46,814 nucleotides of DNA from a virus. A model generated the notes under the pieces. The model saw only the letters and a list, made by a program, of their open reading frames with translations. It ran no database searches and was not told the DNA's origin. The number at the start of each line of letters is the position of its first letter. Within the stretch, counting starts at the first letter, position 1. Of this stretch, positions 3,886 to 24,614 are shown one piece after another. The position numbers were made by a program, and so were the translations under genes. The stretch lies in IMG/VR virus record IMGVR_UViG_3300022690_000487, positions 1 to 46,814 of that record; one strand, 5' to 3'.

Positions 3886-3970
3886 ATAGAAGGCGGTACG
3901 GCTGCAACACAGATTCCACCTTCTATAGTGTCCAATTTTTGTTAAATAAGTTAAGGATTATGTTGCAGCC
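3886..3970 (-). ncRNA. H-type pseudoknot in leader L1
   Basis: Two interleaved inverted repeats. P1 is GGCTGCAACA (3970-3961) pairing with TGTTGCAGCC (3909-3900), 10 bp perfect. P2 is ATAGAAGG (3926-3919) pairing with CCTTCTAT (3893-3886), 8 bp perfect. The order P1-P2-P1'-P2' is an H-type pseudoknot. It begins about 13 nt after the -7 box of a consensus promoter and is followed within 15 nt by the tRNA-like gene. Confidence 0.65.
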
Positions 3971-3982
3971 TTAATTGATATT

Positions 3983-4013
3983 CAAAGGTAAGCATTATTT
4001 TAATAACATCAAA
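3983..4013 (-). promoter_or_regulatory. Bacteroidota-type promoter of leader L1 / packaging operon
   Basis: -33 box TTTG (4013-4010), 19-bp spacer, -7 box TACCTTTG (3990-3983): a full match to TTTG-N19..21-TAnnTTTG. Transcription would start near 3978, a few bases before the pseudoknot. Confidence 0.65.
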
Positions 4014-4096
4014 ATCCATCATTCCGTAGCCTTTGGTAAGTGTATAGTTTATTACACCACCGTAGGATAAAAAGTGAGGAAAAGGAATATTATTAA

Positions 4097-4137
4097 TTAT
4101 GCAGATGCCCAGAACAGCATAACACCGCCCCGGGCAT
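4097..4137 (-). other. Compact pseudoknot-forming 3' element after the TM2 gene
   Basis: Interleaved 6-bp perfect repeats: ATGCCC (4137-4132) with GGGCAT (4110-4105), and TTATGC (4122-4117) with GCATAA (4102-4097), followed by an A/U-rich tail. It starts five bases after the TM2 gene's stop, so it probably marks the 3' end of that transcript. Stems are short; chance is not excluded. Confidence 0.4.
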
Positions 4138-4142
4138 ACACA

Positions 4143-4451
4143 CTATTTGTCCATTAACTTAACTCGTTGGAATGTATCCATGGCAATATCTTCATTCATT
4201 GAATCAATCAATCCGCTGATTCTAAATGCATCAATAACCCACCAAAGAAAGAATCCTCCTCCGGTAAGCCAAAACAGGAAGAATAAACCCCATTTACCCA
4301 TATAGGCATAATGAGCTCCTAGAAAAAACCATAGTGCAAATGCAGCGCCTTTTGATTTTTCATTTCTCTTAAATTGTTTTTCCAATGTGATTTTACCGTC
4401 ATCTGACAGCTTGCCTACATAGGGCAGTAATACTTCTGGGATGTTTTTCAT
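4143..4451 (-). CDS. TM2-domain membrane protein
   Basis: A 102-residue protein with a soluble N-terminus (about 30 residues) and a TM2 domain. A first membrane helix (KGAAFALWFFLGAHYAYMGK) is followed by a tight turn and a second helix (GLFFLFWLTGGGFFLWWVID) ending in the typical D-x-FRI. TM2 proteins are common in bacteria and phages; their role here is unknown (possible superinfection or membrane modification). It is transcribed divergently from the XRE/BRO pair at 4573-5530, sharing a control region with direct repeats. Confidence 0.8.
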   Translation of the reverse strand: MKNIPEVLLPYVGKLSDDGKITLEKQFKRNEKSKGAAFALWFFLGAHYAYMGKWGLFFLFWLTGGGFFLWWVIDAFRISGLIDSMNEDIAMDTFQRVKLMDK

Positions 4452-4479
4452 AGTCTCATTTCATAGTTCTGCAATAAAG

Positions 4480-4534
4480 TTACGTAAAAAAGGACATTTA
4501 CGTACTAAAATACTGAGAAAAAGGACATCTACGT
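4480..4534. promoter_or_regulatory. Direct-repeat operator between divergent genes
   Basis: Two near-identical 17-base repeats (AAAAAGGACATYTACGT, 4487-4503 and 4518-4534, one mismatch) spaced 31 bp, about three helical turns. A third partial TTACGTAAA lies at 4480-4488. They lie between the divergent TM2 and XRE genes, next to the predicted XRE promoter, so they are good candidates for binding sites of the XRE protein encoded at 4573. Confidence 0.5.
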
Positions 4535-4535
4535 C

Positions 4536-4567
4536 ATTGTTTTATAAAATACAAAGTATTTCTTTTG
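4536..4567 (+). promoter_or_regulatory. Probable promoter of the XRE/antirepressor operon
   Basis: ATTG (4536-4539), 20-bp spacer, TTCTTTTG (4560-4567), one mismatch in each box from the TTTG/TAnnTTTG consensus. The start site would be at or next to the ATG at 4573, implying a leaderless or near-leaderless mRNA. Confidence 0.35.
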
Positions 4568-4572
4568 TGTTT

Positions 4573-4782
4573 ATGATCTTGAGTGATGAAGAATTATTGA
4601 TTCGTGTTAGGGATAATATCAAGGCCATAATGAAGTCTAAAGGGATTAAGCAAATAAATTTATCTAATAAGACCGGTATACACGCTGGCCGTTTATTAAC
4701 CGGAGACTGTAATATGACCTTAACTACAATCAATAAGATTGCAAGGTTTTTAGAGATTGAACCAAATGAATTATTAAAATAA
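4573..4782 (+). CDS. XRE-family HTH regulator
   Basis: About 69 residues from the ATG at 4573. A Cro/C1-type HTH spans almost the whole protein (VRDNIKAIMKSKGIKQINLS...TLTTINKIARFLEIEPNELL). An upstream in-frame extension is rejected because it reads through the promoter and operator repeats. It is followed after four bases by a BRO-N antirepressor, a typical regulator/antirepressor pair. Likely binds the repeats at 4480-4534 and controls this operon and the divergent TM2 gene. Confidence 0.75.
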   Translation: MILSDEELLIRVRDNIKAIMKSKGIKQINLSNKTGIHAGRLLTGDCNMTLTTINKIARFLEIEPNELLK

Positions 4783-4786
4783 CGAT

Positions 4787-5530
4787 ATGCATTTACAAAC
4801 ATTCAAATATGAGAATATGGAGGATTTAACCACATTGGAAATTGATGGGGAAATATGGTTTGTTGCCAATGAGGTTTGCAAAGTATTGGGATTAGGCAAT
4901 TCCAGACAAGCAACAAGTAGGCTTGATGAGGATGAGAAGGGGGTGTCATTATTACAGACACCCTCCGGAGACCAAAATAAGACTATAGTATCCGAATCAG
5001 GATTATACGCCTTAATCTTTAGTAGCACCAAACCAGAAGCAAAGAAGTTCCGAAAATGGGTAACCAAAGAGGTTATTCCAAAGATTCGTAAGACAGGTAC
5101 GTATACGGTGGAACGCCGAATGCCCGTTTTCGTAGTTAGGTTCAATGATAATTGGGATCGTACTGATAAAGGCTATTTCTCAGTCATTAGCGAGCTTTAT
5201 ATAAGGCTCTACGGTAGGTTTTGGGGCATAGGTTACGAAATCCCAGACAAAGCCTTTGATGGTAAGGAAATGAGACCTGACAATAGTGTTGGCAGGCTGT
5301 TCGCTAAATACCTAAGAGATCATCACCCTGAAATCTCAGAAGACTACAAAAAGTATCTACACATATTCCCAAATGGATTTGAAGTTGATGTAAGGCAATA
5401 TAGAAACAATTTGTTACCACTATTTATTGAATATGTTGATGATCATTGGATGCCAAATAGAGCGCATGGCTATTTTAAGACCCGCGACCCACTGGCACTT
5501 GATTACTTACCTAAACTACTAAAAGCATGA
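4787..5530 (+). CDS. BRO-N domain antirepressor-like protein
   Basis: A 247-residue protein. The N-terminal BRO-N/Bro-like domain (about 1-105) shows the hallmark IDGEIWFVANEVCKVLGLGN, then SESGLYALIFSSTKPEAKKF and RKWVTKEVIPKIRKTGTY. The C-terminal 140 residues form a second domain rich in aromatics (GYFSVISELYIRLYGRFWGI; KRAHGYFKT-like motif) typical of BRO-associated C-terminal regions. BRO-N proteins bind DNA and often counteract repressors. In an operon with the XRE gene; its stop overlaps the next ATG. Confidence 0.8.
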   Translation: MHLQTFKYENMEDLTTLEIDGEIWFVANEVCKVLGLGNSRQATSRLDEDEKGVSLLQTPSGDQNKTIVSESGLYALIFSSTKPEAKKFRKWVTKEVIPKIRKTGTYTVERRMPVFVVRFNDNWDRTDKGYFSVISELYIRLYGRFWGIGYEIPDKAFDGKEMRPDNSVGRLFAKYLRDHHPEISEDYKKYLHIFPNGFEVDVRQYRNNLLPLFIEYVDDHWMPNRAHGYFKTRDPLALDYLPKLLKA

Positions 5531-5640
5531 GAACACACTATACTGTAGAGGAGATCAAGTTTATAATAAGAATGATCAAAGCAGGAGACAAAGAAATGAA
5601 GCGTACTGTGGAGAAGAAGAAAGAACCTTATTTGGTGTAA
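5527..5640 (+). CDS. Mini-protein, 37 aa, coupled to the antirepressor
   Basis: Starts in an ATGA overlap with the antirepressor stop and encodes a basic, mostly helical peptide (MRTHYTVEEIKFIIRMIKAG...VEKKKEPYLV). The overlap, codon pattern and plus-strand direction support it as a real gene. No family recognised. Confidence 0.5.
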   Translation: MRTHYTVEEIKFIIRMIKAGDKEMKRTVEKKKEPYLV

Positions 5641-5692
5641 AGAACTATACAGTTACCAAGTATTTACGGAACAAATAGAAAAATTTTGACAT

Positions 5693-5723
5693 AAAAAAAG
5701 CCCTGCTATTTTGGTAGCAAGGC
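5693..5723 (-). terminator. Intrinsic terminator of the transposase operon
   Basis: Minus-strand hairpin GCCTTGCTA/TAGCAGGGC (9 bp, one G-U; 5723-5715 with 5708-5700), loop CCAAAA, followed by seven U (5699-5693). It lies 26 bases after the stop of the 5749-6219 gene, at the convergent junction with the plus-strand XRE/BRO operon. Confidence 0.85.
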
Positions 5724-5748
5724 GATGTATCAGCTTATTAAGTATTAT

Positions 5749-6219
5749 TTACTTAGGAGGTGGTTTTAATGATTTGAGTAGGTTTTGATCGAATTGGGAT
5801 AGTATTTCGAGTTCTTCACCTGCCAATGCAAAGCATAGATTTTGGAGTTGGTGGACGTATTTTTTCGTCCATAAGCTAACTGATGAACGATCATCTATTA
5901 AATCGTCTTCATCTAATGCCATTCCAAAACCCCTGTCATCCAAAATGCCCCTAATTGATATATGTGATTTTAGGAAATGAAGTACCATTGCTCCTTTAAT
6001 TTTTACAAACCCAAATTTCAATAACCATTCTTCTGTTAATAGAATAGGTTTGAATTCATAATATTCTTCATTTGCTTCGCTATCCACCCATATTGAATAC
6101 TCGCACATGTCAACTGAGTCTACTCCTAAAACCTCACATAAGGTTTCCTGCTCGACAACTTCTGAATCATAATATATGCCTGTAATATAATTCCCTATTC
6201 TTAATTCTGTATTTTTCAT
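5749..6219 (-). CDS. Conserved Bacteroidota mobile-element protein, 156 aa
   Basis: Begins KNTELRIGNYI and contains ILLTEEWLLKFGF in the middle and KYVHQLQNLCFALAGEEL near the end. I recall this pattern from uncharacterised proteins found in Bacteroidota prophages and integrative elements. Function unknown. It lies five bases downstream of the transposase gene and is the last gene before the terminator at 5693-5723. Confidence 0.7.
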   Translation of the reverse strand: MKNTELRIGNYITGIYYDSEVVEQETLCEVLGVDSVDMCEYSIWVDSEANEEYYEFKPILLTEEWLLKFGFVKIKGAMVLHFLKSHISIRGILDDRGFGMALDEDDLIDDRSSVSLWTKKYVHQLQNLCFALAGEELEILSQFDQNLLKSLKPPPK

Positions 6220-6223
6220 AATC

Positions 6224-7153
6224 TTATATTGCTATTTTTAACATTAAATTAAACCTTTCTCCTCCCATTAAATGCCGGGTGTTATACCTAAACGCTGCTC
6301 CATTGGCATACTTCTGTAAGTGCTGTGGAGATACTGAATGATGAACCCCATGAATACCTCTTTTAAACAAGCTCCAGAAGCCTTCCAGACTATTAATGTG
6401 TACTTCCCCCCTTACATACTCTTCGCGCATGTGATTGACAGCCTCATGCTCATACACATACTTTAAACCGTAATAGCTCTGGTTTCCATCTGAATAAATG
6501 GTGGATCCATAATCAATATAATCCTCAACTACATCCATTAATGTTTCTGCGGTTGTGTCATCGACTACTTTTAATATCAATTTCCCTCCCTTTTGCAACA
6601 TGCCAAAAACCGGGGTCTTGCCTTTGCCTCCTTGCATATTTTTCCGCCTCTTTTTCTTAGCCTTATTAGTTTCTTTTCCACCCCAATACATTTCGTCAAT
6701 CTGGATAACACCATCCATTTTGCCAGTGTTTTCTATTCCCAATAAATCATTAATTGTGTGATGCATTTTTAACGCCGTTACATAGGTTGTATCTAATTGC
6801 CTTTGTAGCTGTTTAGAACTTATTCCCTTATTCTGGCCTATGTACCAAATTGTTAAAAACCATTTTTGGAGGGTAACACGTCCCCCTTGATAGATCGTAT
6901 CTGTTCTAGTATTAAAGTACTTTTTGGTGTTCTTACATCGGTAGGTAGGCTCATAATATATTTCTGTAATGTTGCCTTTTTTATCTTTTACTAATCGCTC
7001 TTTAGGGGTACATTCGTATACCTTAGATTTAGGATCAAATGGAGAAACTACATTGCCCCTCCAACGTAATTCCGTTAGATGCTTTATGCAAGCCTGTTCA
7101 TTTGGGAAGGCTGCAAATAAGTCTATGATAGAATTAAATTCTAAATTAATCAT
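6224..7153 (-). CDS. IS1595 (ISXO2-like) family transposase
   Basis: A 309-residue DDE transposase of the IS1595 group. The N-terminal zinc-ribbon region is degenerate, with only Cys48 and Cys73 at the expected positions. An HTH-like part follows (KWFLTIWYIGQNKGISSKQL), then the catalytic domain with D153 in VIQIDEMYWGGKE, D222 in IYSDGNQSY and E257 in HINSLEGFWSLFKRG. Length fits the family. No terminal inverted repeats or target duplications were seen around it. The start overlaps the upstream gene's stop (ATGA), so it is built into a phage operon instead of being a free IS. It may be domesticated or a solitary passenger. Confidence 0.85.
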   Translation of the reverse strand: MINLEFNSIIDLFAAFPNEQACIKHLTELRWRGNVVSPFDPKSKVYECTPKERLVKDKKGNITEIYYEPTYRCKNTKKYFNTRTDTIYQGGRVTLQKWFLTIWYIGQNKGISSKQLQRQLDTTYVTALKMHHTINDLLGIENTGKMDGVIQIDEMYWGGKETNKAKKKRRKNMQGGKGKTPVFGMLQKGGKLILKVVDDTTAETLMDVVEDYIDYGSTIYSDGNQSYYGLKYVYEHEAVNHMREEYVRGEVHINSLEGFWSLFKRGIHGVHHSVSPQHLQKYANGAAFRYNTRHLMGGERFNLMLKIAI

Positions 7154-7410
7154 AGTGCTTTGATTTGAGCCATTTTAATTAAAACCTTCTCATAAGATTT
7201 CCGCGCAGTACTGTTTCTTTGTGCTCCATTCCAATTTCTGCAATCCACAGCCCCTTCCTCTGCGCTTTTATGCTGTTCAACCTCTTCCAGAAGCCATACT
7301 TCTAATTTTTCCATAAAATATTTATGAAAACCAATAGCTTTAAGGTATTCTTCATGCTCTTCTTTTGAGTTGATGCCATCAGGCATACAATATTTTTTAG
7401 TGTTTTTCAT
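7150..7410 (-). CDS. Hypothetical protein, 86 aa, first gene of the transposase unit
   Basis: Soluble, helical, charged protein with no recognised motif. Start context is ATAAAACTATG. It directly follows the promoter, pseudoknot and U-tract leader at 7556-7411, so its expression is the one most exposed to any attenuation there. Ends in ATGA overlap with the transposase gene. Confidence 0.65.
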   Translation of the reverse strand: MKNTKKYCMPDGINSKEEHEEYLKAIGFHKYFMEKLEVWLLEEVEQHKSAEEGAVDCRNWNGAQRNSTARKSYEKVLIKMAQIKAL

Positions 7411-7421
7411 AGTTTTATAAA

Positions 7422-7504
7422 TTAAAAAACCTATCGGGGCTCAGCTAACGTGGAATCGCTTTACCCTAATAGGTTAAATTTGTTATGGTTCGTTAGGATT
7501 CCAC
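7422..7504 (-). ncRNA. H-type pseudoknot with U-tract in leader L2
   Basis: P1 is GTGGAATC (7504-7497) with GATTCCAC (7457-7450), 8 bp perfect. P2 is AACCTAT plus a GGG extension (7475-7464) with CCC plus ATAGGTT (7439-7428), about 11 pairs with one mismatch. Order P1-P2-P1'-P2', then six U (7427-7422) only 12 bases before the ATG at 7410. The position between promoter and first gene suggests an attenuator or leader riboregulator. Confidence 0.6.
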
Positions 7505-7524
7505 TACTAACTTATATTGTTACT

Positions 7525-7556
7525 CTAAGATACGAAATATATCTTTATAAACCAAA
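7525..7556 (-). promoter_or_regulatory. Promoter of leader L2
   Basis: TTTG (7556-7553), 20-bp spacer, TATCTTAG (7532-7525), one mismatch from TAnnTTTG. Predicted start near 7518, about 14 nt before the pseudoknot. Confidence 0.55.
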
Positions 7557-7635
7557 TGATTATGTATAATAATAAACGTGGACTAAGGACGGATAACTAT
7601 GATAATTCCCCCTACAATGTAGTACTGTGGTGTTT

Positions 7636-7896
7636 TCATCGGGAATGCTTTTGATCTATTTTATTAAGAATTTCCTCCTTACATTGAGTCATTTCCTTAC
7701 TCATTACTTTAAATTCATTATGGATTTCCTTAAATTCCTGTTTTGTGTGGACCAATTCAGCGGTGTTTCTGGATACATCTGATTTAATTAAAGCCATATC
7801 ACCCTCAATTTTATAATATAGCCCTACAATGGTACAAAGAAATACTGCTCCCTTTATAACGTCACTCATTCCTAATTTAAGCTTGCTTGCATCCAT
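7636..7896 (-). CDS. Single-pass membrane protein with coiled coil, 86 aa
   Basis: One N-terminal membrane segment (VIKGAVFLCTIVGLYYKI, about residues 13-30) followed by a long charged coiled-coil helix (HTKQEFKEIHNEFKVMSKEM). The plan resembles small phage membrane proteins such as haemolysin/holin accessory or spanin-like proteins, but no specific family is recognised and it is far from the holin gene. Last gene of its operon. Confidence 0.65.
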   Translation of the reverse strand: MDASKLKLGMSDVIKGAVFLCTIVGLYYKIEGDMALIKSDVSRNTAELVHTKQEFKEIHNEFKVMSKEMTQCKEEILNKIDQKHSR

Positions 7897-7920
7897 GTTA
7901 ATCAGCTTTGTTTAACAAAC

Positions 7921-8106
7921 TTAGCGAATTTCCTTCACATTTTTAGGATTCACAATGAATATCTTACTACCCCATGATAAAACATAATATCCTGATAGCT
8001 TCATTTTAAAGGTGAGCCGCCTTCCAGAATATAGTACTTTTAGCCGTCCATTGTTATCAAAATATGTGAGGTTTTGGGTGCATGTACAAGCTGTTCCTGG
8101 TTTCAT
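7921..8106 (-). CDS. Hypothetical protein, 61 aa
   Basis: Small basic, beta-rich protein with two Cys near the N-terminus (CTCTQN) and repeated strand-like segments (YYVLSWGSKIFIVNPKNVKE). No family recognised. Co-directional with close neighbours. Confidence 0.55.
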   Translation of the reverse strand: MKPGTACTCTQNLTYFDNNGRLKVLYSGRRLTFKMKLSGYYVLSWGSKIFIVNPKNVKEIR

Positions 8107-8131
8107 TTTGATTCAAAACCATAAGGTACAC

Positions 8132-8293
8132 TTAAAATGAATTTATTTCAATAGCTTTTTTCAAAGTTTTCATTCTTTCTTCGGGAGACAAACCAATACT
8201 AGAAATCGGTTTGTTTAAAATATGGGCTGGCAGATAAGAAAACTCTTTATTAAACCACTTTCTCAATTCAGACTTTTTATTTTTTATGCTCAT
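8132..8293 (-). CDS. Mini-protein, 53 aa
   Basis: A clean short frame: MSIKNKKSELRKWFNKEFSY...SSIGLSPEERMKTLKKAIEI, ending at 8132. It fills a gap between two genes in the same direction and has a natural protein composition (basic helix, then a helix-capping SPEE). No family recognised. Confidence 0.55.
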   Translation of the reverse strand: MSIKNKKSELRKWFNKEFSYLPAHILNKPISSIGLSPEERMKTLKKAIEINSF

Positions 8294-8304
8294 CACAAAC
8301 AAAT

Positions 8305-11236: not shown

Positions 11237-11271
11237 AACTCATTTTTGTTAAGATTAAGGGCTTCATGAAA

Positions 11272-11416
11272 CTATGTAGTGACAGGAAAACCCTGTTAAA
11301 CCTATCACCACATAAATAACTATTTCCGTTTGAGTATCGGGAACAATTACTATTTTACAGATTTTCAACTGAACGCATTAGTATTTCACTGTCACGTATA
11401 TTCGGCTGTGAGGTTT
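11272..11416 (-). ncRNA. Conserved structured RNA domain, copy 1 (leader L3)
   Basis: Homologous to 24723-24873 on the other strand. Both begin AAACCTCACA. The block 11396-11354 is 35/43 identical without gaps to 24747-24789 and includes AATACTAATGCGT. After about 25 nt, 11328-11306 is 17/23 identical to 24816-24838. The domain ends in a 15-bp helix (11315-11301 with 11286-11272) that stays paired in both copies although bases differ. About 35 nt separate it from the ATG at 11236. No protein is encoded in it. Confidence 0.7.
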
Positions 11417-11462
11417 ATAAAACAGTCTTTCGGACATACCCGACTTCGGTAGAGTAAAACTT

Positions 11463-11562
11463 GTTTAACCGCTTTAAACCTAAAACCTGACTCTTCAGTC
11501 TTTCGCAATCCAGCCATCATAGCTCTAACGGCTAGGCAGGTAAGGGATTCTAGGATTAGTAT
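11463..11562 (-). other. Additional hairpins in leader L3
   Basis: Between the pseudoknot and the conserved domain the RNA can form several small stems: AGCC/GGCT, GACT/AGTC with a GAAG loop, and GTTTAA/TTAAAC around AGCGG. These may sit within a junction closed by ACCTG/CAGGT. The region looks structured and has no credible frame; the exact fold is uncertain. Confidence 0.35.
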
Positions 11563-11654
11563 CTAACTCACATATTATCTGATCCAACAACCGTCTATTG
11601 TTGAAGTTTGGTTTATTTTCTTTGAATCCTAAAAAACACCGACCCAAAGGGCAG

Positions 11655-11742
11655 AAAAAAAGGATTACTGATTTTAGCCCGCAAGAACCTTTATGTTTCA
11701 GTAACCCTAATTTTTTGTTTAAAGTCGTTCGATTCTTGCGGG
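11655..11742 (-). ncRNA. H-type pseudoknot with U-tract in leader L3
   Basis: P1 is CCCGCAAGAA (11742-11733) with TTCTTGCGGG (11687-11678), 10 bp perfect. P2 is AGGGTTACTGA (11708-11698) with TCAGTAATCCT (11671-11661), 11 bp with one U-G. Order P1-P2-P1'-P2', then seven U (11661-11655). It starts about 9 nt after the predicted transcription start. Confidence 0.65.
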
Positions 11743-11757
11743 AATCATTATGTAATA

Positions 11758-11789
11758 CAAATGTAGTCATAATTTTAGTTAATTACAAG
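11758..11789 (-). promoter_or_regulatory. Promoter of leader L3
   Basis: CTTG (11789-11786), 20-bp spacer, TACATTTG (11765-11758; exact TAnnTTTG). The predicted start near 11751 is just upstream of the pseudoknot. The promoter overlaps the start of a spurious 81-codon frame at 11525-11770, which is why that frame is not called. Confidence 0.55.
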
Positions 11790-15061: not shown

Positions 15062-16039
15062 TTAAAAAGGAAGGTCCGAATTTTCAGGGTCCGTTATTTG
15101 TTCAATATTGTTTTCGTGATCCTCAAATTTATTACTCATTCCTCCGTCCGGTTGAATAGTTTCAATATCCTCCATTTGATCAAACGCATAAACTCTTTTT
15201 CCGAAATCAGGATAGTAAAACTTTTGTAGTTTAATATCAAATTCCAGTGTTATCATTCCGGTTTTACCCACAATTCGGGGTTTAATCTTTTGAAAATATA
15301 TATCGTATTCAATACCCTCCTTTTCCTCTTTGTGGATACTTATTACATTTCTTGCATTATTAGCCCATTCCGAACCGCCCATTAAATCGTAAATATCAGG
15401 CGGTTTCAAATTTCCCTGAGCATTAAAGTTTTCCTTTGTAGGTTTTGATGGGTGGATAATTGTGAAGAAATGAATCTTGTGTAAATCTGCTAACTCATTT
15501 CTATAGCTCAATACATCTGCCAGATAACCGGGACCAGTTTCTACATGATTCATATAATTCCAACTATCAATAGTGGCAGTGCTGTAGTTATTTTCAATTG
15601 CATACTCCCAAAACTCTTTCGGGGTTGGTCTTTGCAGCCTTCCTTTTCTATCCTTTTCTAATTCCAGGATGTTAAACTTTTCCACTATCCGATACAATGC
15701 AGGGGAAACTTCCGATTCCTGTATTAAATTCTGATAGCGTTTATCAAATGTTTTTCCGGTTTCTTTCTGGATTAGATGTGAGATTACTTCCTCCGGTTTT
15801 CCAGCATCAGGTAAATGTAAAAGATGGCGTATTCCATGCTTCTTAGTGAGGTTAAATAAAATTTCATTAGCTATTAGGGTTTTGCCAGAATAAGGATAAC
15901 CAGTGATGTCCGTAACGCCCGAAGGAAGGAATTTATAATGGTTATCTATTGGGCTAAAGCCAATGGAGTACAGTTTAATATCTTCTTTTAAATACTTAAT
16001 CATTTTTTCTTCTAAGTCCTCAAATTTCAATACCCTCAT
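15062..16039 (-). CDS. RecA-fold replicative helicase/ATPase (DnaB-like C-terminal domain)
   Basis: A 325-residue single-domain ATPase. Walker A GYPYSGKT is at 47-54 and a Walker B-like ATIDSW at about 155-162. A histidine/sensor motif (TIIHPSK) and QKIKPRIVGKTG near the end are consistent with the RecA/DnaB core. The family's N-terminal primase-binding domain is absent. The C-terminus is an acidic tail ending NSDLPF, like the tail of bacterial SSB. It follows the putative helicase-loader gene and is the strongest replication gene here. Confidence 0.75.
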   Translation of the reverse strand: MRVLKFEDLEEKMIKYLKEDIKLYSIGFSPIDNHYKFLPSGVTDITGYPYSGKTLIANEILFNLTKKHGIRHLLHLPDAGKPEEVISHLIQKETGKTFDKRYQNLIQESEVSPALYRIVEKFNILELEKDRKGRLQRPTPKEFWEYAIENNYSTATIDSWNYMNHVETGPGYLADVLSYRNELADLHKIHFFTIIHPSKPTKENFNAQGNLKPPDIYDLMGGSEWANNARNVISIHKEEKEGIEYDIYFQKIKPRIVGKTGMITLEFDIKLQKFYYPDFGKRVYAFDQMEDIETIQPDGGMSNKFEDHENNIEQITDPENSDLPF

Positions 16040-16663
16040 TTATCCGAACTTTTTGATTGATTCCTGTTTGCGCTTTAATTTCTGTTCTTTGGTTTCTTCT
16101 AAGGGTTGATCTTTTAATATTTTAGCAATCCTATTTCTGAAGTAAACACACTTATCTTCAAATTCCTTTTTATCATATTGGTTTCCGATATATGGTAATT
16201 TGAAATTGTTGAACAGCTCTGTAAATTTTTCATCCGATAAATTGAAATGTTCCTTAACCGCATTTACCATTCCATCATTTAAGAGATAATCTTCTATTAA
16301 GAAAAAATCTTTATTCCAGAAATTTACTATTTCTTCTTTACTCTTTACTCTTTCTTCTTTCTTCTTTCCTTCTAGGGTTCCTTCAAGGCTCCCTTCGAGG
16401 GTTGAATCCTTAAGTCTTTGGTTTTCAGCCTTTATATCCGCACCTAATTTACCAGTTAGCTTTGCGTCTATAACGAAATCCATCGTCTTTTTGTAAGTTT
16501 TGAAGTATTTTTCAACAATTTTCGAACGAAACTGAACGGTTTTACCTCTGTAATATCGAATTACATTGATCAAAAAGTCATTTAAATGCTTTTCATTCTC
16601 GAAGAATTCCTCGGCAATTTCAATGTCCTGAATGGTAATTTTTATGAAGTCTTTTTTTGGCAT
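16040..16663 (-). CDS. Putative replication initiator / helicase loader, 207 aa
   Basis: The N-terminal half is basic and helical, a central low-complexity Glu/Gly repeat ([20 protein letters not shown]) links to a C-terminal domain ([38 protein letters not shown]). The two-domain layout with a variable linker, directly upstream of the helicase, is typical of phage replication initiation/loader proteins in Bacteroidota. Functional call is by context. First gene after leader L4. Confidence 0.5.
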
Positions 16664-16666: not shown

Positions 16667-16732
16667 GTAGATGTTTTGTGTAGATGTGGTTAAAAAGAGA
16701 GCCGGAGGTACATCTACGAAACCGCCCGGCCC
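16667..16732 (-). ncRNA. H-type pseudoknot in leader L4, next to the start codon
   Basis: P1 is GGGCCGG (16732-16726) with CCGGCTC (16705-16699), 7 bp with one G-U, followed by a U-rich stretch. P2 is GTAGATGT in the loop (16717-16710) with ACATCTAC (16687-16680), 8 bp perfect. A second copy of CATCTAC at 16673-16667, three bases from the ATG, is an alternative partner. Switching between the two would change access to the start codon. Confidence 0.6.
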
Positions 16733-16772
16733 TTTGATCTTTGAATGTAAAAGCGTTCAAACAATTACAACC

Positions 16773-16803
16773 CAAAGATACACATTTAATCGGTTAATTC
16801 AAA
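16773..16803 (-). promoter_or_regulatory. Promoter of leader L4 / replication operon
   Basis: TTTG (16803-16800), exact 19-bp spacer, TATCTTTG (16780-16773): full match to the Bacteroidota consensus. It overlaps the very end of the upstream gene. The start site would be near 16766, about 35 nt before the pseudoknot. Confidence 0.65.
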
Positions 16804-19714: not shown

Positions 19715-20130
19715 TTTAAGAGTTCAGGGTTTTGGTAGATGTTTCCTATTACTTCTAGCGTTAATAGTCCACATTTCACAAAATCATATTCCCAATCAGA
19801 TTTGTTTTTTACATTTTGTCGATGCAACATCATGCAAGGATTTACAATATCATTTTTTATTAAACTTATAAGTTTTTCTTTTTTGAAGGTATCAATAAAA
19901 ACATAATTTCCTTTGTATATTTCAAACACGATATCTCCCTCATAAATTTCTTTCCCGTTCTTGTCTTTAAGACCTGTATACGATATTAAAATAATATGTT
20001 CAGGATGTTCTCCAGTAGGCAAAACAGTTGATACAACCCTTCCGTCCGGTCTCACTAAAAAGTGTAATGGATTTATCCATCGTTTTGTTTTTGATTGCCA
20101 CGCCCTGAATTTTATCTCTCTGGTTTCCAT
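19711..20130 (-). CDS. YopX-family protein
   Basis: About 139 residues from the ATG at 20130 (METREIKFRAW), in the conserved AACTATG-like context; an upstream UUG is less likely. YopX hallmarks: REIKFRAWQSKTKRW, TGLKDKNGKEIYEGDIVFEI and EVIGNIYQNPELL. YopX proteins are widespread in phages of Firmicutes and Bacteroidota; function unknown. Confidence 0.85.
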   Translation of the reverse strand: METREIKFRAWQSKTKRWINPLHFLVRPDGRVVSTVLPTGEHPEHIILISYTGLKDKNGKEIYEGDIVFEIYKGNYVFIDTFKKEKLISLIKNDIVNPCMMLHRQNVKNKSDWEYDFVKCGLLTLEVIGNIYQNPELLK

Positions 20131-20134
20131 AGTC

Positions 20135-20371
20135 TTATTTATCAAGTTTTTCCTCTAATTTGCTTTTCTTGTCCAGTGATTTATAAACAGTCCTGTACTG
20201 CTCCTTTACCTGTTCCTTAAGTTCTACCCACTCTTTAGACTCTGGAAATTCTAATGTAGGATCATACCTTCGTGTAATCTCAATTTCGTCCCTGACTTCC
20301 ACCGGAATTTTTAACCAAGTGGTTTCCACCATAGTGCATTTTAGAGTTAGATTTGTTATTTTAGTTCCCAT
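20135..20371 (-). CDS. Hypothetical protein, 78 aa
   Basis: Beta-rich N-terminus (TKITNLTLKCTMVETTWLKI) and a charged helical C-terminus. Its ATG overlaps the ERF gene's stop, so it is probably translated with it. No family recognised. Confidence 0.65.
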   Translation of the reverse strand: MGTKITNLTLKCTMVETTWLKIPVEVRDEIEITRRYDPTLEFPESKEWVELKEQVKEQYRTVYKSLDKKSKLEEKLDK

Positions 20372-20913
20372 TATGCGATTTCTTTAAGATATTGCGTTTC
20401 GTTTGCTTTGCTCAATTTATAGTGTTCCCGAACATCCTTAACCGTTGCTTTCTTTTTAACAGCGTTTTCCCATTCTGGTGTACCAATATTAATCCACTCC
20501 TTATCATCATCGTCTGGATTAGTCTTTGTTTGTGGTTTATTGTTGGAGTTTGCCACTGGCTTTGCTTTGTTTCCATCGTCATCCTCTGCCTGAATAGCAA
20601 GTAAGGATTGCAAGGTATACCGCCTGTAATACGAGATACAGGAACCTATCTTTTGCGGATCTGTTAGATCAGGAAGTTTTAAACTGCTCCCTATGGATTC
20701 ATCACTTTCCAAATCGGTTATATTACTGTGTACTATGCCGTCTTTAATGGGCTGTGTAAGGATTAGATTATTCTTTTCCAGTAAAGGCTCCACGTGTTCC
20801 AATAAAGCGTTTATATCGAAGTATTGGCTATTATGAAATGGATTAGTTGAATCCTTTGAGATTTTACCAATCTCCTTTTTCACTGCTGCTATTTTTTTTA
20901 GTATTGCATTCAT
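20371..20913 (-). CDS. erf: ERF-family single-strand annealing protein
   Basis: A 180-residue protein from the ATG at 20913 (ATAAAACTATG context; an upstream UUG extension is rejected). ERF signature: DSTNPFHNSQYFDINALLEH, VEPLLEKNNLILTQPI, KIGSCISYYRRYTLQSLLAI, then EDDDGNKA. The C-terminal third is a linker and small domain. ERF proteins anneal complementary single strands in phage recombination. First gene after leader L5. Confidence 0.85.
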   Translation of the reverse strand: MNAILKKIAAVKKEIGKISKDSTNPFHNSQYFDINALLEHVEPLLEKNNLILTQPIKDGIVHSNITDLESDESIGSSLKLPDLTDPQKIGSCISYYRRYTLQSLLAIQAEDDDGNKAKPVANSNNKPQTKTNPDDDDKEWINIGTPEWENAVKKKATVKDVREHYKLSKANETQYLKEIA

Positions 20914-21085
20914 AGTTTTATCTTTTAATTTACCTTTAAAAAATAACCATCTGTCCTCCAAGTTGGAATACTTTCCTAATCATATTGTACCCGTTGCGTA
21001 GGAGCGCACCCACTTGTCAGTAGGTAATACAAGCCGTTTAAGTATCTCAACAGCAAACTAATCCCTTGGTGTGATTGTGATATGC

Positions 21086-21171
21086 CAATAGTTTGGTAAG
21101 AATTTGCATCTTACACCCAAATATACATGGACTCTAGCTAAGAGCGCGTCTTATTCCGCCACAATAAATTG
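21086..21171 (-). ncRNA. Degenerate tRNA-Leu-like element in leader L5
   Basis: A D-arm-like GGCGGAATAAGACGCGC close to class II (Leu) D-arms is followed by a shrunken stem-loop around TTAGCTA and a T-arm-like hairpin GTAAG-A-TGCAAAT-T-CTTAC. The flanks form an extended helix CAAT...ATTG / TTG...CAA with a 3x3 internal loop, paralleling the element at 3632-3705. T-loop position 55 and the anticodon stem are abnormal, so decoding is unlikely. Confidence 0.3.
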
Positions 21172-21199
21172 TAATACATCACTTGTTCGCCGTTAAGCA

Positions 21200-21237
21200 G
21201 ATGGTATTTCATTTATCCAAATACATCTTATCTGGAT
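21200..21237 (-). ncRNA. Weak H-type pseudoknot at the start of leader L5
   Basis: P1 is ATCCA/TGGAT (21237-21233 with 21219-21215), 5 bp. P2 is GATGTATTT (21227-21219) with AAATACCATC (21209-21200), 9 bp with one bulge. The stems are interleaved but share base 21219. Weaker than the other leaders; called mainly because of its position right after a promoter. Confidence 0.35.
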
Positions 21238-21239
21238 TA

Positions 21240-21271
21240 CTAATTTACTCAATTTAAGCGTATTTTCCAAT
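21240..21271 (-). promoter_or_regulatory. Probable promoter of leader L5
   Basis: ATTG (21271-21268), 20-bp spacer, TAAATTAG (21247-21240), one mismatch in each box from the consensus. It lies just inside the gap after the 21281-21577 gene and directly precedes the pseudoknot. Confidence 0.4.
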
Positions 21272-21280
21272 CATAACAGG

Positions 21281-21577
21281 TTAGTCTTTAAAGGTTTCCA
21301 ATGTCTTTTTAATCAGGTTATCAATTTTACATACGCTATTCATTAATTTCCTATTGTCTTGTTTAAGAAGGATAGGAAAAAATAATTTGTCCCGTACATC
21401 CCTTAATACAACAAGAGCGTTTTGGTCATTATCGGTTAGTTTCGGTTTCTGTCCCCTTGAAAGATAGTCGTCTGATTCAATGGGAAAGTTTCGTATGTGA
21501 ATCTTTCCATGTCCTTTTATGTCAACATAGCCCTCATTATCCTGTAACAATTTTGCTACTTCTTTTGATATTATCAT
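21281..21577 (-). CDS. Hypothetical protein, 98 aa
   Basis: Begins with a small beta domain (EVAKLLQDNEGYVDIKGHGK) and continues as a basic helical region. Last gene of the early operon, ending just before the L5 promoter. No family recognised. Confidence 0.65.
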   Translation of the reverse strand: MIISKEVAKLLQDNEGYVDIKGHGKIHIRNFPIESDDYLSRGQKPKLTDNDQNALVVLRDVRDKLFFPILLKQDNRKLMNSVCKIDNLIKKTLETFKD

Positions 21578-21581
21578 AGTT

Positions 21582-21824
21582 CTATTCGTTAATAAATTTT
21601 ACCGGAATACTCTCAAATAAGTCCTCTGTAGTTTTGAAAATAAGGTCTTCGTTGATTGATGGGCGGTTTCCTTCTATGGAATATTCAATAAATAATTCTT
21701 CTTTGTTAAACTGTCCGTTTTCAATTACTGATATTGCTATCTCATTTATCCTAACTTCTGTAATAGTTCCTTTGTCAAGAATTAACCCCCTATCTCCTAT
21801 ATTAAATTTAGTTTTGATTTCCAT
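21582..21824 (-). CDS. Small beta-rich protein, 80 aa
   Basis: IKTKFNIGDRGLILDKGTIT has the look of a small SH3/KOW-like barrel as seen in many phage hypothetical proteins; an acidic C-terminal part follows. Four bases upstream of the next gene. Domain call is tentative. Confidence 0.6.
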   Translation of the reverse strand: MEIKTKFNIGDRGLILDKGTITEVRINEIAISVIENGQFNKEELFIEYSIEGNRPSINEDLIFKTTEDLFESIPVKFINE

Positions 21825-21846
21825 TAGTTCTATTCGTTTAATTAAA

Positions 21847-21871
21847 CCCTTCTACCGATTTGATAGAAGGG
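21847..21871 (-). terminator. Terminator-like hairpin with alternative pairing
   Basis: Perfect 8-bp stem CCCTTCTA/TAGAAGGG (21871-21864 with 21854-21847) and a short U-run (UUUAAUU). An upstream AAACCCC (around 21874-21880) can instead pair with GGGTTT, and a 4-bp CCGA/TCGG is interleaved. It sits between the 21900 and 21582 genes, so it may partially terminate. Confidence 0.4.
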
Positions 21872-21899
21872 GAGGGGTTTTCGCGCTTTAGTCGGCTTC

Positions 21900-22088
21900 C
21901 TATTTTCCTTTGTTTACCCGGTCAACTAAGGATTCTTTACTACTAAAAGCAACCCCTCTTCCTTCTTCACGTCTAGTTGAATAATGATCATCATTACCCA
22001 TGTATCCTCTAACTAATTCTACATCTATAGAGCTTCCGTCTTTAGCTGTTTCAGTTGTGTGATTGTACTTGTTGTTGTTTTTTCCCAT
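21900..22088 (-). CDS. Hypothetical protein, about 62 aa
   Basis: Start at the ATG at 22088 (MGKNNNKYNHTTETAKDGSS), preferred because the longer frame runs into the upstream gene. Polar and disordered N-terminus, then DVELVRGYMGNDDHYSTRRE. No family recognised. Confidence 0.55.
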   Translation of the reverse strand: MGKNNNKYNHTTETAKDGSSIDVELVRGYMGNDDHYSTRREEGRGVAFSSKESLVDRVNKGK

Positions 22089-22102
22089 GATATTTATTTT
22101 TT

Positions 22103-22408
22103 TTATTCGTTTAAGTTTGTACATTTAAAAAAATTCTCAAAGTCCGCTTTGTGTTCCGGTATTTCGAAATATGAATTCAGTTCTCCACACATATTAAACC
22201 CATATTTATCCTCATCCATTGCATACTGTCCTAAGGTATGAGTATTCAAGTATTTCAAATCAAAGGAATCAAATGAGTGCTTAATCTGTAGGGTATTTTC
22301 AAAGGCTCCTACATTAGTAACTTTATACTCGCAGTCTTCTTTATCTGATATAATGATAACTTCATCCCACTTGATAATCGTTTCGAATACTGGTATTGGT
22401 TTATTCAT
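22103..22408 (-). CDS. Hypothetical protein, 101 aa
   Basis: Begins with strands (IPVFETIIKWDEVIIISDKE) and continues as a mixed acidic domain (DSFDLKYLNTHTLGQYAMDE). No family recognised. In the XRE-led early operon. Confidence 0.6.
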   Translation of the reverse strand: MNKPIPVFETIIKWDEVIIISDKEDCEYKVTNVGAFENTLQIKHSFDSFDLKYLNTHTLGQYAMDEDKYGFNMCGELNSYFEIPEHKADFENFFKCTNLNE

Positions 22409-22414
22409 CTTAAT

Positions 22415-22639
22415 TTATAAGGTTATATTTGGAGGATACAATACAATTTCTGTTGATGGTACTTTTTGCTCTTGTAATTCATTTTGAAACTCATCTGCTC
22501 TTACCTCATCTTTATCAATCGCAATCCTTGTTATGTAGCAATGTAATTTTATTCCGCTTTCGGTTTCTCCCTCCCAAACTCTTGCAGGAACGCCATCTAA
22601 ATTTGTAATTTTTGTTGTGCTTTCAATTGTTATTTTCAT
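22415..22639 (-). CDS. Hypothetical protein, 74 aa
   Basis: Start at the ATG at 22639 (MKITIESTTKITNLDGVPAR), in CATAATT-type context; an upstream extension would overlap the preceding gene. Beta-rich; a VWEGETESGIKLHCYITRIA core suggests a small sandwich. No family recognised. Confidence 0.6.
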   Translation of the reverse strand: MKITIESTTKITNLDGVPARVWEGETESGIKLHCYITRIAIDKDEVRADEFQNELQEQKVPSTEIVLYPPNITL

Positions 22640-22649
22640 AATTCCGATT

Positions 22650-22838
22650 TTAAAGTGATCCAATAAAGTTCCAATAATTAGCCTCTGATGCAAAAAGTTC
22701 TGATCTCTTGTGAGTAAACAGTTTTCTTTGTGGCTTACTAACCACATCCATCATTCCAAAGTCCATTTCCTCTACAGGCTCAATGATCTCAATCTCTTGG
22801 TTTCTTTCTGCTTTGAATTGGATTATGTAGTTTAGCAT
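22650..22838 (-). CDS. Hypothetical protein, 62 aa
   Basis: Short polar protein (KAERNQEIEIIEPVEEMDFG...SELFASEANYWNFIGSL) with no recognised motif. Preceded by an 87-base gap carrying hairpins and a TATTTAGC motif similar to other starts in this operon. Confidence 0.55.
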   Translation of the reverse strand: MLNYIIQFKAERNQEIEIIEPVEEMDFGMMDVVSKPQRKLFTHKRSELFASEANYWNFIGSL

Positions 22839-22870
22839 GATTGTCGTTGTTTTATATTTAGCAAGAAAGT

Positions 22871-22923
22871 ACCCCCATGTCGGAGAGGGTTAGCCGTCCG
22901 CAAGAATTTAGCGAAACTCACGG
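22871..22923 (-). other. Intergenic hairpins after the 67-aa gene
   Basis: Two possible stems right after the 22926 stop. The first is nested: CCGT/ACGG enclosing CGC/GCG (22923-22920 with 22897-22894; 22913-22911 with 22901-22899). The second is ACCC...GGGGGT around 22890-22871. No U-run follows, so a terminator is only a possibility; a 5' leader structure is the alternative. Confidence 0.3.
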
Positions 22924-22925
22924 AA

Positions 22926-23129
22926 TTATTTCAACTCCCTTTTAGACCCTATAAACGTGATGTAACATTCATTTCCTACATCGTCTAAAATTTTGAATGT
23001 CCTGTATACAGATTTAAGTGCCCTGTTTTCAATTTCTTTTTTTGCGTGTCCGGTAGCCGTGCTTCTGTCAAAGGTTGCTCCTTCCGTTCTGAATAAAGTG
23101 ATTCTGTTTCTTGTGATTTGATTTTTCAT
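22926..23129 (-). CDS. Hypothetical protein, 67 aa
   Basis: Basic protein (MKNQITRNRITLFRTEGATF) with a C-terminal beta/helix part (FKILDDVGNECYITFIGSKR). Its ATG is preceded by AAAAATTTAGCAAA, nearly the same leader as the neighbouring 23381 start. No family recognised. Confidence 0.6.
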   Translation of the reverse strand: MKNQITRNRITLFRTEGATFDRSTATGHAKKEIENRALKSVYRTFKILDDVGNECYITFIGSKRELK

Positions 23130-23156
23130 TTTGCTAAATTTTTAAGTGTTTATAAA

Positions 23157-23381
23157 TTATTTGATAAGTCCGTTGTTCTTTGCAAAATAAGCAACACACC
23201 AAGCTTGTTTTTCTGAAATTGACTTGTGGTTCATAACAGCCTTTTCTACGATGTCTGAACAAAAATGCCCTACCTCGTCAGCTTTTTGCATGATTTCACT
23301 CCATATAGGCAGAATAGCCATTGTTAAAGAGTGTCCGTTGCTGATGTCTTTGATTGATGTTTTGATTTCTAATAAGTTCAT
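23157..23381 (-). CDS. Hypothetical protein, 74 aa
   Basis: Start at the ATG at 23381 (MNLLEIKTSIKDISNGHSLT), with the AAAAATTTAGCATT leader. An upstream in-frame extension is rejected because it covers the promoter/operator at 23420-23450. Helical, with KSISEKQAWCVAYFAKNNGL near the end, a pattern I associate with small phage proteins of unknown role. First gene controlled by the XRE operator site. Confidence 0.6.
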   Translation of the reverse strand: MNLLEIKTSIKDISNGHSLTMAILPIWSEIMQKADEVGHFCSDIVEKAVMNHKSISEKQAWCVAYFAKNNGLIK

Positions 23382-23419
23382 AATGCTAAATTTTTGTTGT
23401 TGTTTGATTAAGTATACGG

Positions 23420-23450
23420 TAAAGGTAATACTTTGTTGCGTATTCACAAC
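23420..23450 (-). promoter_or_regulatory. Early promoter overlapped by an XRE operator
   Basis: GTTG (23450-23447), 19-bp spacer, TACCTTTA (23427-23420), one mismatch per box. The palindrome TGTTG-N8-CAACA (23434-23451) covers the -33 box. The same GTTG-N8-CAAC arrangement occurs at the XRE gene's own start. Confidence 0.55.
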
Positions 23451-23456
23451 ACTTTT

Positions 23457-23654
23457 TTAATCTTTTTTCTTTTTAATCAATTTCATACCCAACTTTTTTT
23501 CGAGTTTATCAATCATATCTGCGCCTATATTTGTGTGTGCACCGCTAAAATAACTAGATAATGTACTCCTATGTATACCAATGATTGCCGCTAAATCTAC
23601 TACGGAATAATTTTGTGCTTTTGCCTCTTTTTTTAGTACTTCGTGTTTTTTCAT
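23457..23654 (-). CDS. XRE-family HTH regulator of the early region
   Basis: About 65 residues from the ATG at 23654. It has an HTH region KAQNYSVVDLAAIIGIHRST then LSSYFSGAHTNIGADMIDKL, and a basic C-terminus. The palindrome GTTG-N8-CAAC directly abuts the ATG, and a second copy lies in the next promoter, so autorepression and control of the 23381 operon are likely. It also divides this operon from the divergent plus-strand gene at 23731. Confidence 0.75.
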   Translation of the reverse strand: MKKHEVLKKEAKAQNYSVVDLAAIIGIHRSTLSSYFSGAHTNIGADMIDKLEKKLGMKLIKKKKD

Positions 23655-23689
23655 GTTGCTAATATACAACATTTATTTAGGAATTCTAA
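23655..23689 (-). promoter_or_regulatory. XRE promoter with palindromic operator
   Basis: TTAG (23689-23686), 19-bp spacer, TATATTAG (23666-23659). The palindrome ATGTTG-N8-CAACAT (23653-23672) covers the -7 box and touches the start codon. The start site would be at the ATG, implying a leaderless mRNA. Confidence 0.5.
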
Positions 23690-23708
23690 TTAATTTCGTT
23701 TTACTTTG
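23676..23708 (+). promoter_or_regulatory. Possible promoter of the plus-strand 23731 gene
   Basis: TTTA (23676-23679), 21-bp spacer, TTACTTTG (23701-23708), one mismatch in each box. It lies just beyond the XRE operator, so the same regulator could affect both directions. Confidence 0.35.
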
Positions 23709-23730
23709 TCTTAAACTTAAGATAAAAATT

Positions 23731-24471
23731 ATGGAAGTAAATGAAATTTTACCAGTACTGGACATTGAGGTTTTAAAAGAAAAAGCCCAAGAGGCAGCTA
23801 TGAAAGGAGCCATTAATGAAATAGAAAGTTATTACAACTCCTATAACTCACCGTATAAAGAAGCTATAAAAGAACAATTAAGCAAGCAGGAGGCTAAATG
23901 GAGTATTTCATTGCCTGATATTTTATCAGTAATAAACGAGAGGTTAGTTGCTGAAATAGATGTGATTGCAAATAACGCAATTTCAAAAACGTTTGTTCCA
24001 ATGGTTAATAATTTCTTAACAAGGGAAAACAAGGAAATTAATTTTTCTTATGTTCTTCAAAGTTTCATAGATGTAATGAAGGATAACTTACCTTATGGAG
24101 AAATGATGGATGAGGAGAGTTTTTGTGTTGACGTTGAAAAAGACGATAGGCACGATTGGTTAAACGTTGAAATAGGTAGTGATAAGGGTGTTTATCGTAT
24201 CACATTTCACACATCTGGAAAGCCTAAAGAGGGAGAAAAGCAAAAATATCAAATACTATCATTACCAAGAACAGATTATAACAGCCTGAGCCAAGTGATG
24301 ACGCTTAAAGTTGATGGTGTTAGCCTTGAAATGCCTTTCACCAAAGATGTGTTAAAAGATGGATTTATGTCGTTTATCGCTAAGTTAATAATAGCAGATT
24401 CAGATATAACTATGGATTGTACAGATTTTCAAGAAGATATGTTTCCGACTGATGAATGTTATTGTGATTAA
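23731..24471 (+). CDS. Hypothetical protein, 246 aa
   Basis: Start at the ATG at 23731 (MEVNEILPVLDIEVLKEKAQ). Helical N-terminal 110 residues (one long helical bundle region), then an acidic beta-rich half (CVDVEKDDRHDWLNVEIGSD; YRITFHTSGKPKEGEKQKYQ) ending DECYCD. No family recognised. Divergent from the XRE gene, so it is a candidate early or lysogeny-linked gene. Confidence 0.7.
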   Translation: MEVNEILPVLDIEVLKEKAQEAAMKGAINEIESYYNSYNSPYKEAIKEQLSKQEAKWSISLPDILSVINERLVAEIDVIANNAISKTFVPMVNNFLTRENKEINFSYVLQSFIDVMKDNLPYGEMMDEESFCVDVEKDDRHDWLNVEIGSDKGVYRITFHTSGKPKEGEKQKYQILSLPRTDYNSLSQVMTLKVDGVSLEMPFTKDVLKDGFMSFIAKLIIADSDITMDCTDFQEDMFPTDECYCD

Positions 24472-24504
24472 TTTGGAAATCTAAGGATTATTACCGTATA
24501 TTGT
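24472..24504 (+). promoter_or_regulatory. Promoter of leader L6
   Basis: TTTG (24472-24475), 21-bp spacer, TATATTGT (24497-24504), two mismatches from TAnnTTTG. It begins at the end of the upstream gene and precedes the pseudoknot by about 17 nt. Confidence 0.45.
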
Positions 24505-24521
24505 AATTCATAATTGCAAAG

Positions 24522-24614
24522 CCCGACCAAGGAACAGCAAGAACTTATTTAAAAAATCCCGTCTACGGGTGGGCTATCTTTCAAACCTTGGTCGGGATGC
24601 GATAGCCCTTTTTT
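24522..24614 (+). ncRNA. H-type pseudoknot with U-tract in leader L6
   Basis: P1 is CCCGACCAAGG (24522-24532) with CCTTGGTCGGG (24586-24596), 11 bp perfect. P2 is GGGCTAT (24571-24577) with ATAGCCC (24602-24608), 7 bp perfect, followed by six U (24609-24614). A small hairpin CCCGT/ACGGG (24558-24569) sits inside. Same P1-P2-P1'-P2'-U plan as L2 and L3 on the other strand. Confidence 0.7.

Follow-up and report, generated by a model that had tools for sequence, protein, structure and literature searches.

We describe here a group of leader RNAs, each predicted to lie just downstream of a promoter, in a viral DNA of 46,814 nucleotides (nt) (IMG/VR record IMGVR_UViG_3300022690_000487; the whole stretch is called the window below). 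The terminase encoded in the window is 44–49% identical to terminases of Bacteroides fragilis and Elizabethkingia phages, and 54–57% identical to those of a few uncultured viral contigs. Five units begin with a promoter that reads as the Bacteroidota type, namely TACCTTTG for leader A, TATCTTAG for B, TACATTTG for C, TATCTTTG for D and TATATTG for F, and each has, as a preliminary description of this DNA had claimed, an upstream TTTG or TTG about 19–21 nt away. The A, C and D promoters match the consensus TAnnTTTG exactly, those of B and F are near-consensus, and all are located at most about 25 nt upstream of strand a, the first strand of two interleaved helices. The preliminary description had placed every leader before the first gene of a unit; this holds where the units are protein-coding, but leaders C and F head non-coding RNAs and leader A precedes tRNA-like genes.

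Both strands of the 46.8-kb window were scanned for interleaved helices, with strength given in kcal on a stacking sum and with dinucleotide shuffles as the reference. No other pseudoknot in the window was as strong as those of leaders F (24522, plus strand), A (3970, minus strand) and C (11742, minus strand), at −41 to −42 kcal with F the strongest, and 20 shuffles of the entire window contained none at −40 kcal or better. The fourth-ranked pseudoknot, at −36.6 kcal, lies within the non-coding stretch after C. We also compared the 130 nt after each promoter with 300 dinucleotide shuffles, both as a pseudoknot and as a pair of kissing hairpins. As pseudoknots, leaders A, B, C and F surpassed all 300 shuffles; as kissing hairpins A, C and F did so again, and B was equalled by 1 shuffle of 300. 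The interleaved A-B-A'-B' stems described earlier were thereby borne out at 3970–3886, 7504–7428 and 11742–11661 (minus strand) and at 24522–24608 (plus strand), as were the U-tracts behind the final stem of B, C and F. The claim for leader D (16732–16680, minus strand) stood in part: a leader is located there, but the pairing of GTAGATGT with a downstream copy has been replaced, because alternative partners fold better and end at a U-tract like the other leaders. The re-drawn fold (16761–16691) was matched by 1 of 300 shuffles as a pseudoknot and by 8 of 300 as kissing hairpins. In all, the U-tract is strong in B, C, D and F and weak in A. Leader E, proposed at 21237–21200 (minus strand), was rejected, since 27 of 300 shuffles were equally good and a good promoter was absent; it falls in a stretch of about 300 nt (20961–21280, minus strand) that has no open reading frame (ORF) of 60 amino acids, also holds the promoter-like TATATTTG, and may be another non-coding RNA.

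To survey relatives we used as bait the DnaB/primase-helicase-like gene downstream of leader D, whose product is 41% identical to gp55 of Flavobacterium columnare phage FCL-2, and gathered 80 viral loci (658 kb) by similarity to this protein, without use of the RNA. Forty pseudoknots reach −30 kcal in the 658 kb, and 26 of these 40 sit 5–22 nt after a TAnnTTTG; promoter-adjacent pseudoknots made up 0 of 4 in shuffled copies, 0 of 104 in other viral contigs and 1 of 190 in assorted genomes. When a U-tract was required, 51 promoter sites in the related phages had a leader at −30 kcal or better, and the same scan of 400 kb from two Bacteroidota host genomes gave none. At least one leader was present in 47 of the 80 loci (52 leaders in all), every one of 54 leader hits was on the coding strand, and at 33 of the 61 loci with enough upstream DNA a leader was located at a common place, roughly 1 kb (range 0.3–2.2 kb) before the helicase-like gene. 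Most loci have one leader, and none exceeded the four to five of the window; because many IMG/VR records are fragmentary, the number of leaders per phage is a lower bound. The earlier suggestion that such leaders control each phage operon is therefore too broad.

Isolated phages carry the element as well. In FCL-2, an interleaved structure lies behind promoter TATATTTG, and its U-tract stands 14 nt upstream of gp54; gp54 is replication-initiator-like and precedes gp55, so that the place of this leader corresponds to that of leader D in the window. A leader built on the same plan occupies the FCL-2 position in phages FCV-1, V165 and FCOV-F56; for most of the other F. columnare phages, recognisable sequence similarity to the FCL-2 stretch is limited to its promoter-side first part. 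In Tenacibaculum phage Gundel_1 a leader lies directly upstream of an anti-repressor gene. No convincing leader was seen in the distant relatives B124-14, TCUEAP2, MT835637 and terminase-related contigs, and protein scans with the window transposase or the helicase-like gene alone did not find viral relatives. A covariance model run against 298 host genomes returned three weak hits, none with the leader-type fold and at least one of them a terminator right after a gene. Host genes were rejected as the source of the leaders on this result and because 400 kb of host DNA gave not one leader followed by a strong U-tract. An explanation at the level of DNA, as palindromes or element ends, was rejected on two grounds: the helices cross one another, and no hit lies on the non-coding strand.

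It should be noted that stems a, b and c served as search criteria, and that stem d, strand, location and the sequence-only alignments described below are independent of the search. When 51 non-redundant candidates were laid out, they displayed more than the H-type pseudoknot of the preliminary description. The interleaved a and b helices of that label are present, but it is incomplete, because a further covarying helix turns the fold into two tandem hairpins with kissing loops: strand a is in the loop of a 5' hairpin closed by stem d, and its partner a' is in the loop of a terminator-like hairpin built of stems b and c. Every supported leader of the window, too, opens with a hairpin of its own that carries the first strand in its loop, a feature overlooked in the earlier reading. 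Stem d, which lay outside all search criteria, reaches −6.5 kcal or better in 33 of 39 strong leaders, against 5.3 of 39 expected when flanks are shuffled. Hairpin 1 begins 0–13 nt, mostly 4–6 nt, past the last promoter base. An AUG is found within 35 nt after stem b in 33 of the 39 leaders, the start codons being mostly 7–30 nt after the stem.

We examined covariation in four subfamilies (A2 to A5) that were aligned by sequence only, the named helices being counted afterwards. In A2 (10 sequences) 94.8% of cells are paired, compared with 37–47% for slid versions, and double-sided changes occur in 21 of 31 pairs, with 0 of 500 shuffles as good. In A4, stem d is 100% paired with double changes in 5 of 5 pairs, and the loop-loop helix has double changes in 5 of 10; A3 and A5 agree with A2 and A4. 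RNAalifold, to which no structure was supplied, recovered both hairpin 1 and hairpin 2. The relatives thus keep the stems by covariation. For the family of leader RNAs that the preliminary description proposed, the support is strong and comes from the occurrence in 47 of 80 loci, from the unrelated sequences, from the covariation and from the absence of the U-tract form from the host DNA scanned. These several observations establish that the leaders exist, with their position, strand, fold and U-tract, the covariation of all helices and a bias to phages.

Outside the paired strands, the internal loops of hairpin 2 are purine-rich and recur in leaders of unrelated sequence. GAGUA opposite GAAA, which resembles the bulged-G (loop E/sarcin-ricin) module, is seen in loci L282, L280, L336, L288 and L271, and other subfamilies have GGA/AAA or UGAA/GGAU in its place. 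Variants of GAAAAAAUU or UAAGACAUU occur in the linkers, which are rich in A. A boxA-like linker motif was considered and a common boxA was not found among the leader linkers; host rRNA leaders were sought for comparison, and 16S pieces were present in only 1 of 6 genomes. Short AUG-stop frames of the kind needed for attenuation by an upstream ORF were noted by eye in some leaders and were not conserved. Positions for the window are collected in Table 1.

Table 1. Leaders of the window, their paired elements and associated units
Feature	Position	Strand	Promoter	Hairpin 1	Strands a; a'	Stem b	U-tract	Remarks
Leader A	3886–3990	−	TACCTTTG 3990–3983	UUAAGG/CCUUAA 3974–3969 / 3956–3951	3968–3959 (12 bp form 3970–3959); 3911–3902	3926–3916 / 3896–3886		before tRNA-like genes
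Leader B	7421–7532	−	TATCTTAG 7532–7525	GUUAG/CUAAC 7511–7507 / 7496–7492	7504–7497; 7457–7450	7475–7468 / 7435–7428, with inner GGG/CCC	after 7428	before small ORF and IS1595-type transposase
Leader C	11654–11765	−	TACATTTG 11765–11758	11747–11742 / 11735–11730	11742–11731; 11689–11678	11708–11698 / 11671–11661	11660–11654	5' part of non-coding RNA
Leader D (re-drawn)	16691–16780	−	TATCTTTG 16780–16773	UUUGAA/UUCAAA 16761–16756 / 16745–16740	16751–16747; 16717–16713	16733–16725 / 16706–16698 (hairpin GGGCCGG/CCGGCUC)	UCUUUUU 16697–16691
Leader F	24497–24614	+	TATATTG 24497–24503	UUGC/GCAA (only 4 bp) 24514–24517 / 24537–24540	24522–24532; 24586–24596	24571–24578 / 24601–24608	24609–24614	5' part of non-coding RNA
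Non-coding RNA after leader C	11240–11653	−						motif CUUCAA-hairpin-UUGUUGGAUCAG 11606–11579; second block 11402–11373
Non-coding RNA after leader F	24615–24920	+						same motif 24663–24690; second block 24741–24770
ORF directly after leader D	16040–16663	−						precedes gene at 15062–16039
DnaB/primase-helicase-like gene	15062–16039	−						downstream of leader D; phrog_5482 3e-53, phrog_239 5e-16

The non-coding RNAs behind leaders C and F are related, are 300–500 nt long and share two blocks; the middle part of the one after C has no ORF of 60 amino acids or more on its own strand. At least 17 other viral contigs contain the motif CUUCAA-hairpin-UUGUUGGAUCAGAUAA, L077, L080, L061, L064, L069 and L098 being among them, and in several it directly follows a Bacteroidota-type promoter. 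Its inner hairpin is extended by pairing in 19 of 19 copies (32 extension pairs versus 8.7 expected, several of the copies being close relatives). The motif has no match in Rfam, and a first broad motif scan gave mostly chance matches. For the second block (GnCAGTGnAATACTAATGCGT...), a pattern scan gave zero matches; a related GATACTAACGCA block seems present in L077. Loci L098, L056, L039, L116 and their relatives have a long polypyrimidine tract (CTTTTTCTTTTCTTTCTTTTT...) right after the CUUCAA motif, following a short G-run. In L077 and L080, a promoter, interleaved stems and a U-tract lie upstream of the motif, as at leader C; we read the second stem of L080 as CCCGGC/GUCGGG before a U-rich stretch, and the finder had ranked this locus with a different second stem.

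Behind leader A are two tRNA-like stretches (3640–3871, minus strand), one of them an Rfam tRNA match over 131 nt, longer than normal. ARAGORN called no tRNA in them, and they are possibly degenerate or interrupted tRNAs. Under leader B, an IS1595-type transposase (PF12762) and a small ORF (6224–7410, minus strand) lie inside the phage genome. Genes after leaders in the relatives include those for replication initiators, homing endonucleases with NUMOD4/HNH/AP2 domains, and a KilA-N protein. Homing-endonuclease genes in L296, L306, L283, L294, L299 and L307 carry their own promoter and kissing leader; the NUMOD4/HNH/AP2 domains are in L296, L306 and L307, and L283 and L299 have similar N-termini. 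Hairpin 2 is near-identical among the leaders of L296, L306, L283 and L294, which suggests that leader and homing-endonuclease gene move together.

We next consider what the leaders might do. The 8 nt after stem b contain a mean of 5.5 U, against 2.4 at equal distance from the start codons of these phages' other genes, so that the U enrichment belongs to the hairpin and not to start regions in general. A stable hairpin followed by a U-run upstream of a gene is the anatomy of an intrinsic terminator or attenuator. The preliminary description had offered three functions, and since the second hairpin and its U-tract are terminator-like, attenuation fits best of the three; protection of the 5' end is possible, but put/EAR-like antitermination found no specific support. 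Because the non-coding RNA units (C and F) and the tRNA-like unit (A) have leaders, the function cannot be translational only, and the protein-less units as a whole (A, C and F of the window, together with L077 and L080) favour a transcriptional over a purely translational role. On balance we consider it somewhat probable that the leaders are a cis-acting, termination-linked family of the attenuator type at the 5' ends of phage transcripts.

On this attenuator-type reading, transcription would start within a few nt of hairpin 1 and yield a leader RNA of about 100 nt at the 5' terminus. The loop of hairpin 1 would bear strand a, and an A-rich linker of about 10–40 nt would lead to hairpin 2, in which stem b, mostly followed by a purine-rich internal loop, and stem c carry an apical loop containing a', so that the loops could kiss over about 6–12 bp. 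A U-tract would follow, and in protein-coding units a start codon usually 7–30 nt further on. Hairpin 2 and the U-tract would then act as an intrinsic terminator between the promoter and the first gene, non-coding RNA or tRNA, and the loop-loop contact, perhaps bound by a host or phage factor, would tune how frequently RNA polymerase passes. Such a switch could set the timing or level of separate phage units.

Several points weigh against an attenuator of this kind. The leaders are known here from sequence, from which transcript start, termination and regulation are inferred. Loop sequence is not conserved, so a ligand site is not evident, and a large structured loop is atypical for strong terminators. 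A conserved alternative (antiterminator) pairing was not found in the leaders, and the kissing contact appears compatible with a fully formed terminator; possibly, the contact stabilises termination or serves as a landing site, rather than preventing the terminator. Within the window, the U-tract of A is only weak (UCUUUGUCUU), leaders A, C and F depart from the main group in their longer loop pairing and in having no stem c, and the own stems of A, B, C and F have no covariation support, close relatives not having been found.

The best-placed rival, which we nevertheless regard as unlikely, is that the kissing hairpins shield the transcript from 5'-dependent decay and keep an AU-rich start region open. 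The closeness of hairpin 1 to the promoter and of the AUG to stem b, described above, would suit such a protector or translational leader, messenger, tRNA and non-coding RNA units could all gain from protection, and the T4 gene 32 pseudoknot leader (PMC535899, PMC3014915) offers a precedent, as 5' stem-loops that stabilise an RNA offer an analogy. It leaves unexplained, however, the U-tract linked to the hairpin and the conserved loop-loop contact, and its translational variant fails on the tRNA and non-coding RNA units. Still less probable is a processive antiterminator, in which the nascent leader would bind RNA polymerase and make it resistant to later terminators. The position at the start of units on both strands matches that of the put RNAs of phage HK022, and the recurrent purine-rich internal loops would be in keeping with it; yet no Rfam match was obtained even at permissive thresholds, the shared core sequence expected for put was not seen, and a U-tract right after hairpin 2 is unexpected. 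We give little credence to the idea that these are stand-alone small RNA genes, each a promoter, about 100 nt of compact structure and an intrinsic-terminator-like end, with the downstream gene incidental or fed by read-through: although this is indeed the anatomy of a small RNA gene, the distance to the next start codon is consistently short, the leaders recur before initiator-helicase operons, and the wide divergence of the loops does not suggest a trans-acting RNA with fixed targets. Finally, chance inverted repeats or ordinary terminators near promoters can scarcely account for the family, since, common as weak pseudoknots are in AT-rich DNA (leader E was of that kind), the shuffles, reversed decoy promoters, host DNA and slid-column controls refute such an origin for it, although weak single leaders such as D could be examples.

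Returning to the attenuator-type switch, we may extend it, tentatively and with less than an even chance of being right, to a portable cassette of promoter plus kissing hairpins, with replication operons, homing endonucleases, the transposase unit, tRNA-like genes and non-coding RNAs as its carriers, that would act as a general RNA-only checkpoint, the loop contact to the 5' end of the nascent transcript choosing between termination and elongation, possibly via a phage-modified RNA polymerase. If true, the checkpoint would be a previously undescribed class of phage transcription control. More generally, Bacteroidota phages probably share a hitherto unrecognised RNA switch at the start of replication, mobile-element, tRNA and non-coding RNA genes. 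The timing of phage gene expression in Bacteroidota seems poorly known, the literature searches made having turned up nothing on it, and a covarying leader that Flavobacterium and Tenacibaculum phages share with phages of many uncultured hosts offers a concrete way in. Since the isolated phages FCL-2, FCV-1 and Gundel_1 carry the leader, termination and read-through, and what the loop contact does, are directly testable in them. The leaders also form a set of intramolecular kissing loops, diversified by nature and linked to terminators, that should be useful for work on RNA structure and on RNA switches of Bacteroidota.

Rfam, searched at permissive thresholds included, has zero family matches for the leaders of the window or of the relatives, and a description of such a leader RNA was not found in the open full-text literature. 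Within these searches the earlier statement that the plan is unknown among described phage RNA families was borne out, and the leaders appear to be an undescribed RNA family, of the terminator-linked leader kind. Four known systems invite comparison. The put RNAs of phage HK022 are cis-acting two-hairpin RNAs that closely follow the phage promoter in more than one operon; our leaders likewise, as judged by promoter sequence, head the transcripts of more than one phage operon. The put hairpins, however, share sequence, do not kiss and have no following U-tract; this contrast with the kissing, U-tract and free sequence of the leaders is drawn from the general description of put rather than from a sequence comparison. 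EAR is a structured RNA, containing a pseudoknot, for which an action on RNA polymerase has been proposed, but it is a conserved element inside exopolysaccharide operons of Bacillales and not a promoter-proximal phage leader; the leaders matched no Rfam family, the presence of an EAR model among those families not having been confirmed. The T4 gene 32 leader, too, is a pseudoknot in the 5' leader of a phage gene, with an AU-rich start region behind it. It differs in being a small pseudoknot concerned with autogenous translational repression of one gene (PMC535899, PMC3014915), with kissing hairpins and a terminator absent. The closest likeness, in architecture only, is to the guanidine-IV and Gd4v riboswitches, in which two hairpins are joined by a pseudoknot and the second is a terminator before the start codon (PMC9788692). 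In the phage leaders, by contrast, the loops vary freely while their pairing is kept, and the leaders start at a promoter, occur in phages and have no Rfam match; by the tests made, the phage leader is not a member of the guanidine-IV class. The guanidine-IV and Gd4v platforms can nonetheless switch transcription, and for this reason a cis-acting attenuator is the function that we favour for the leaders described here.

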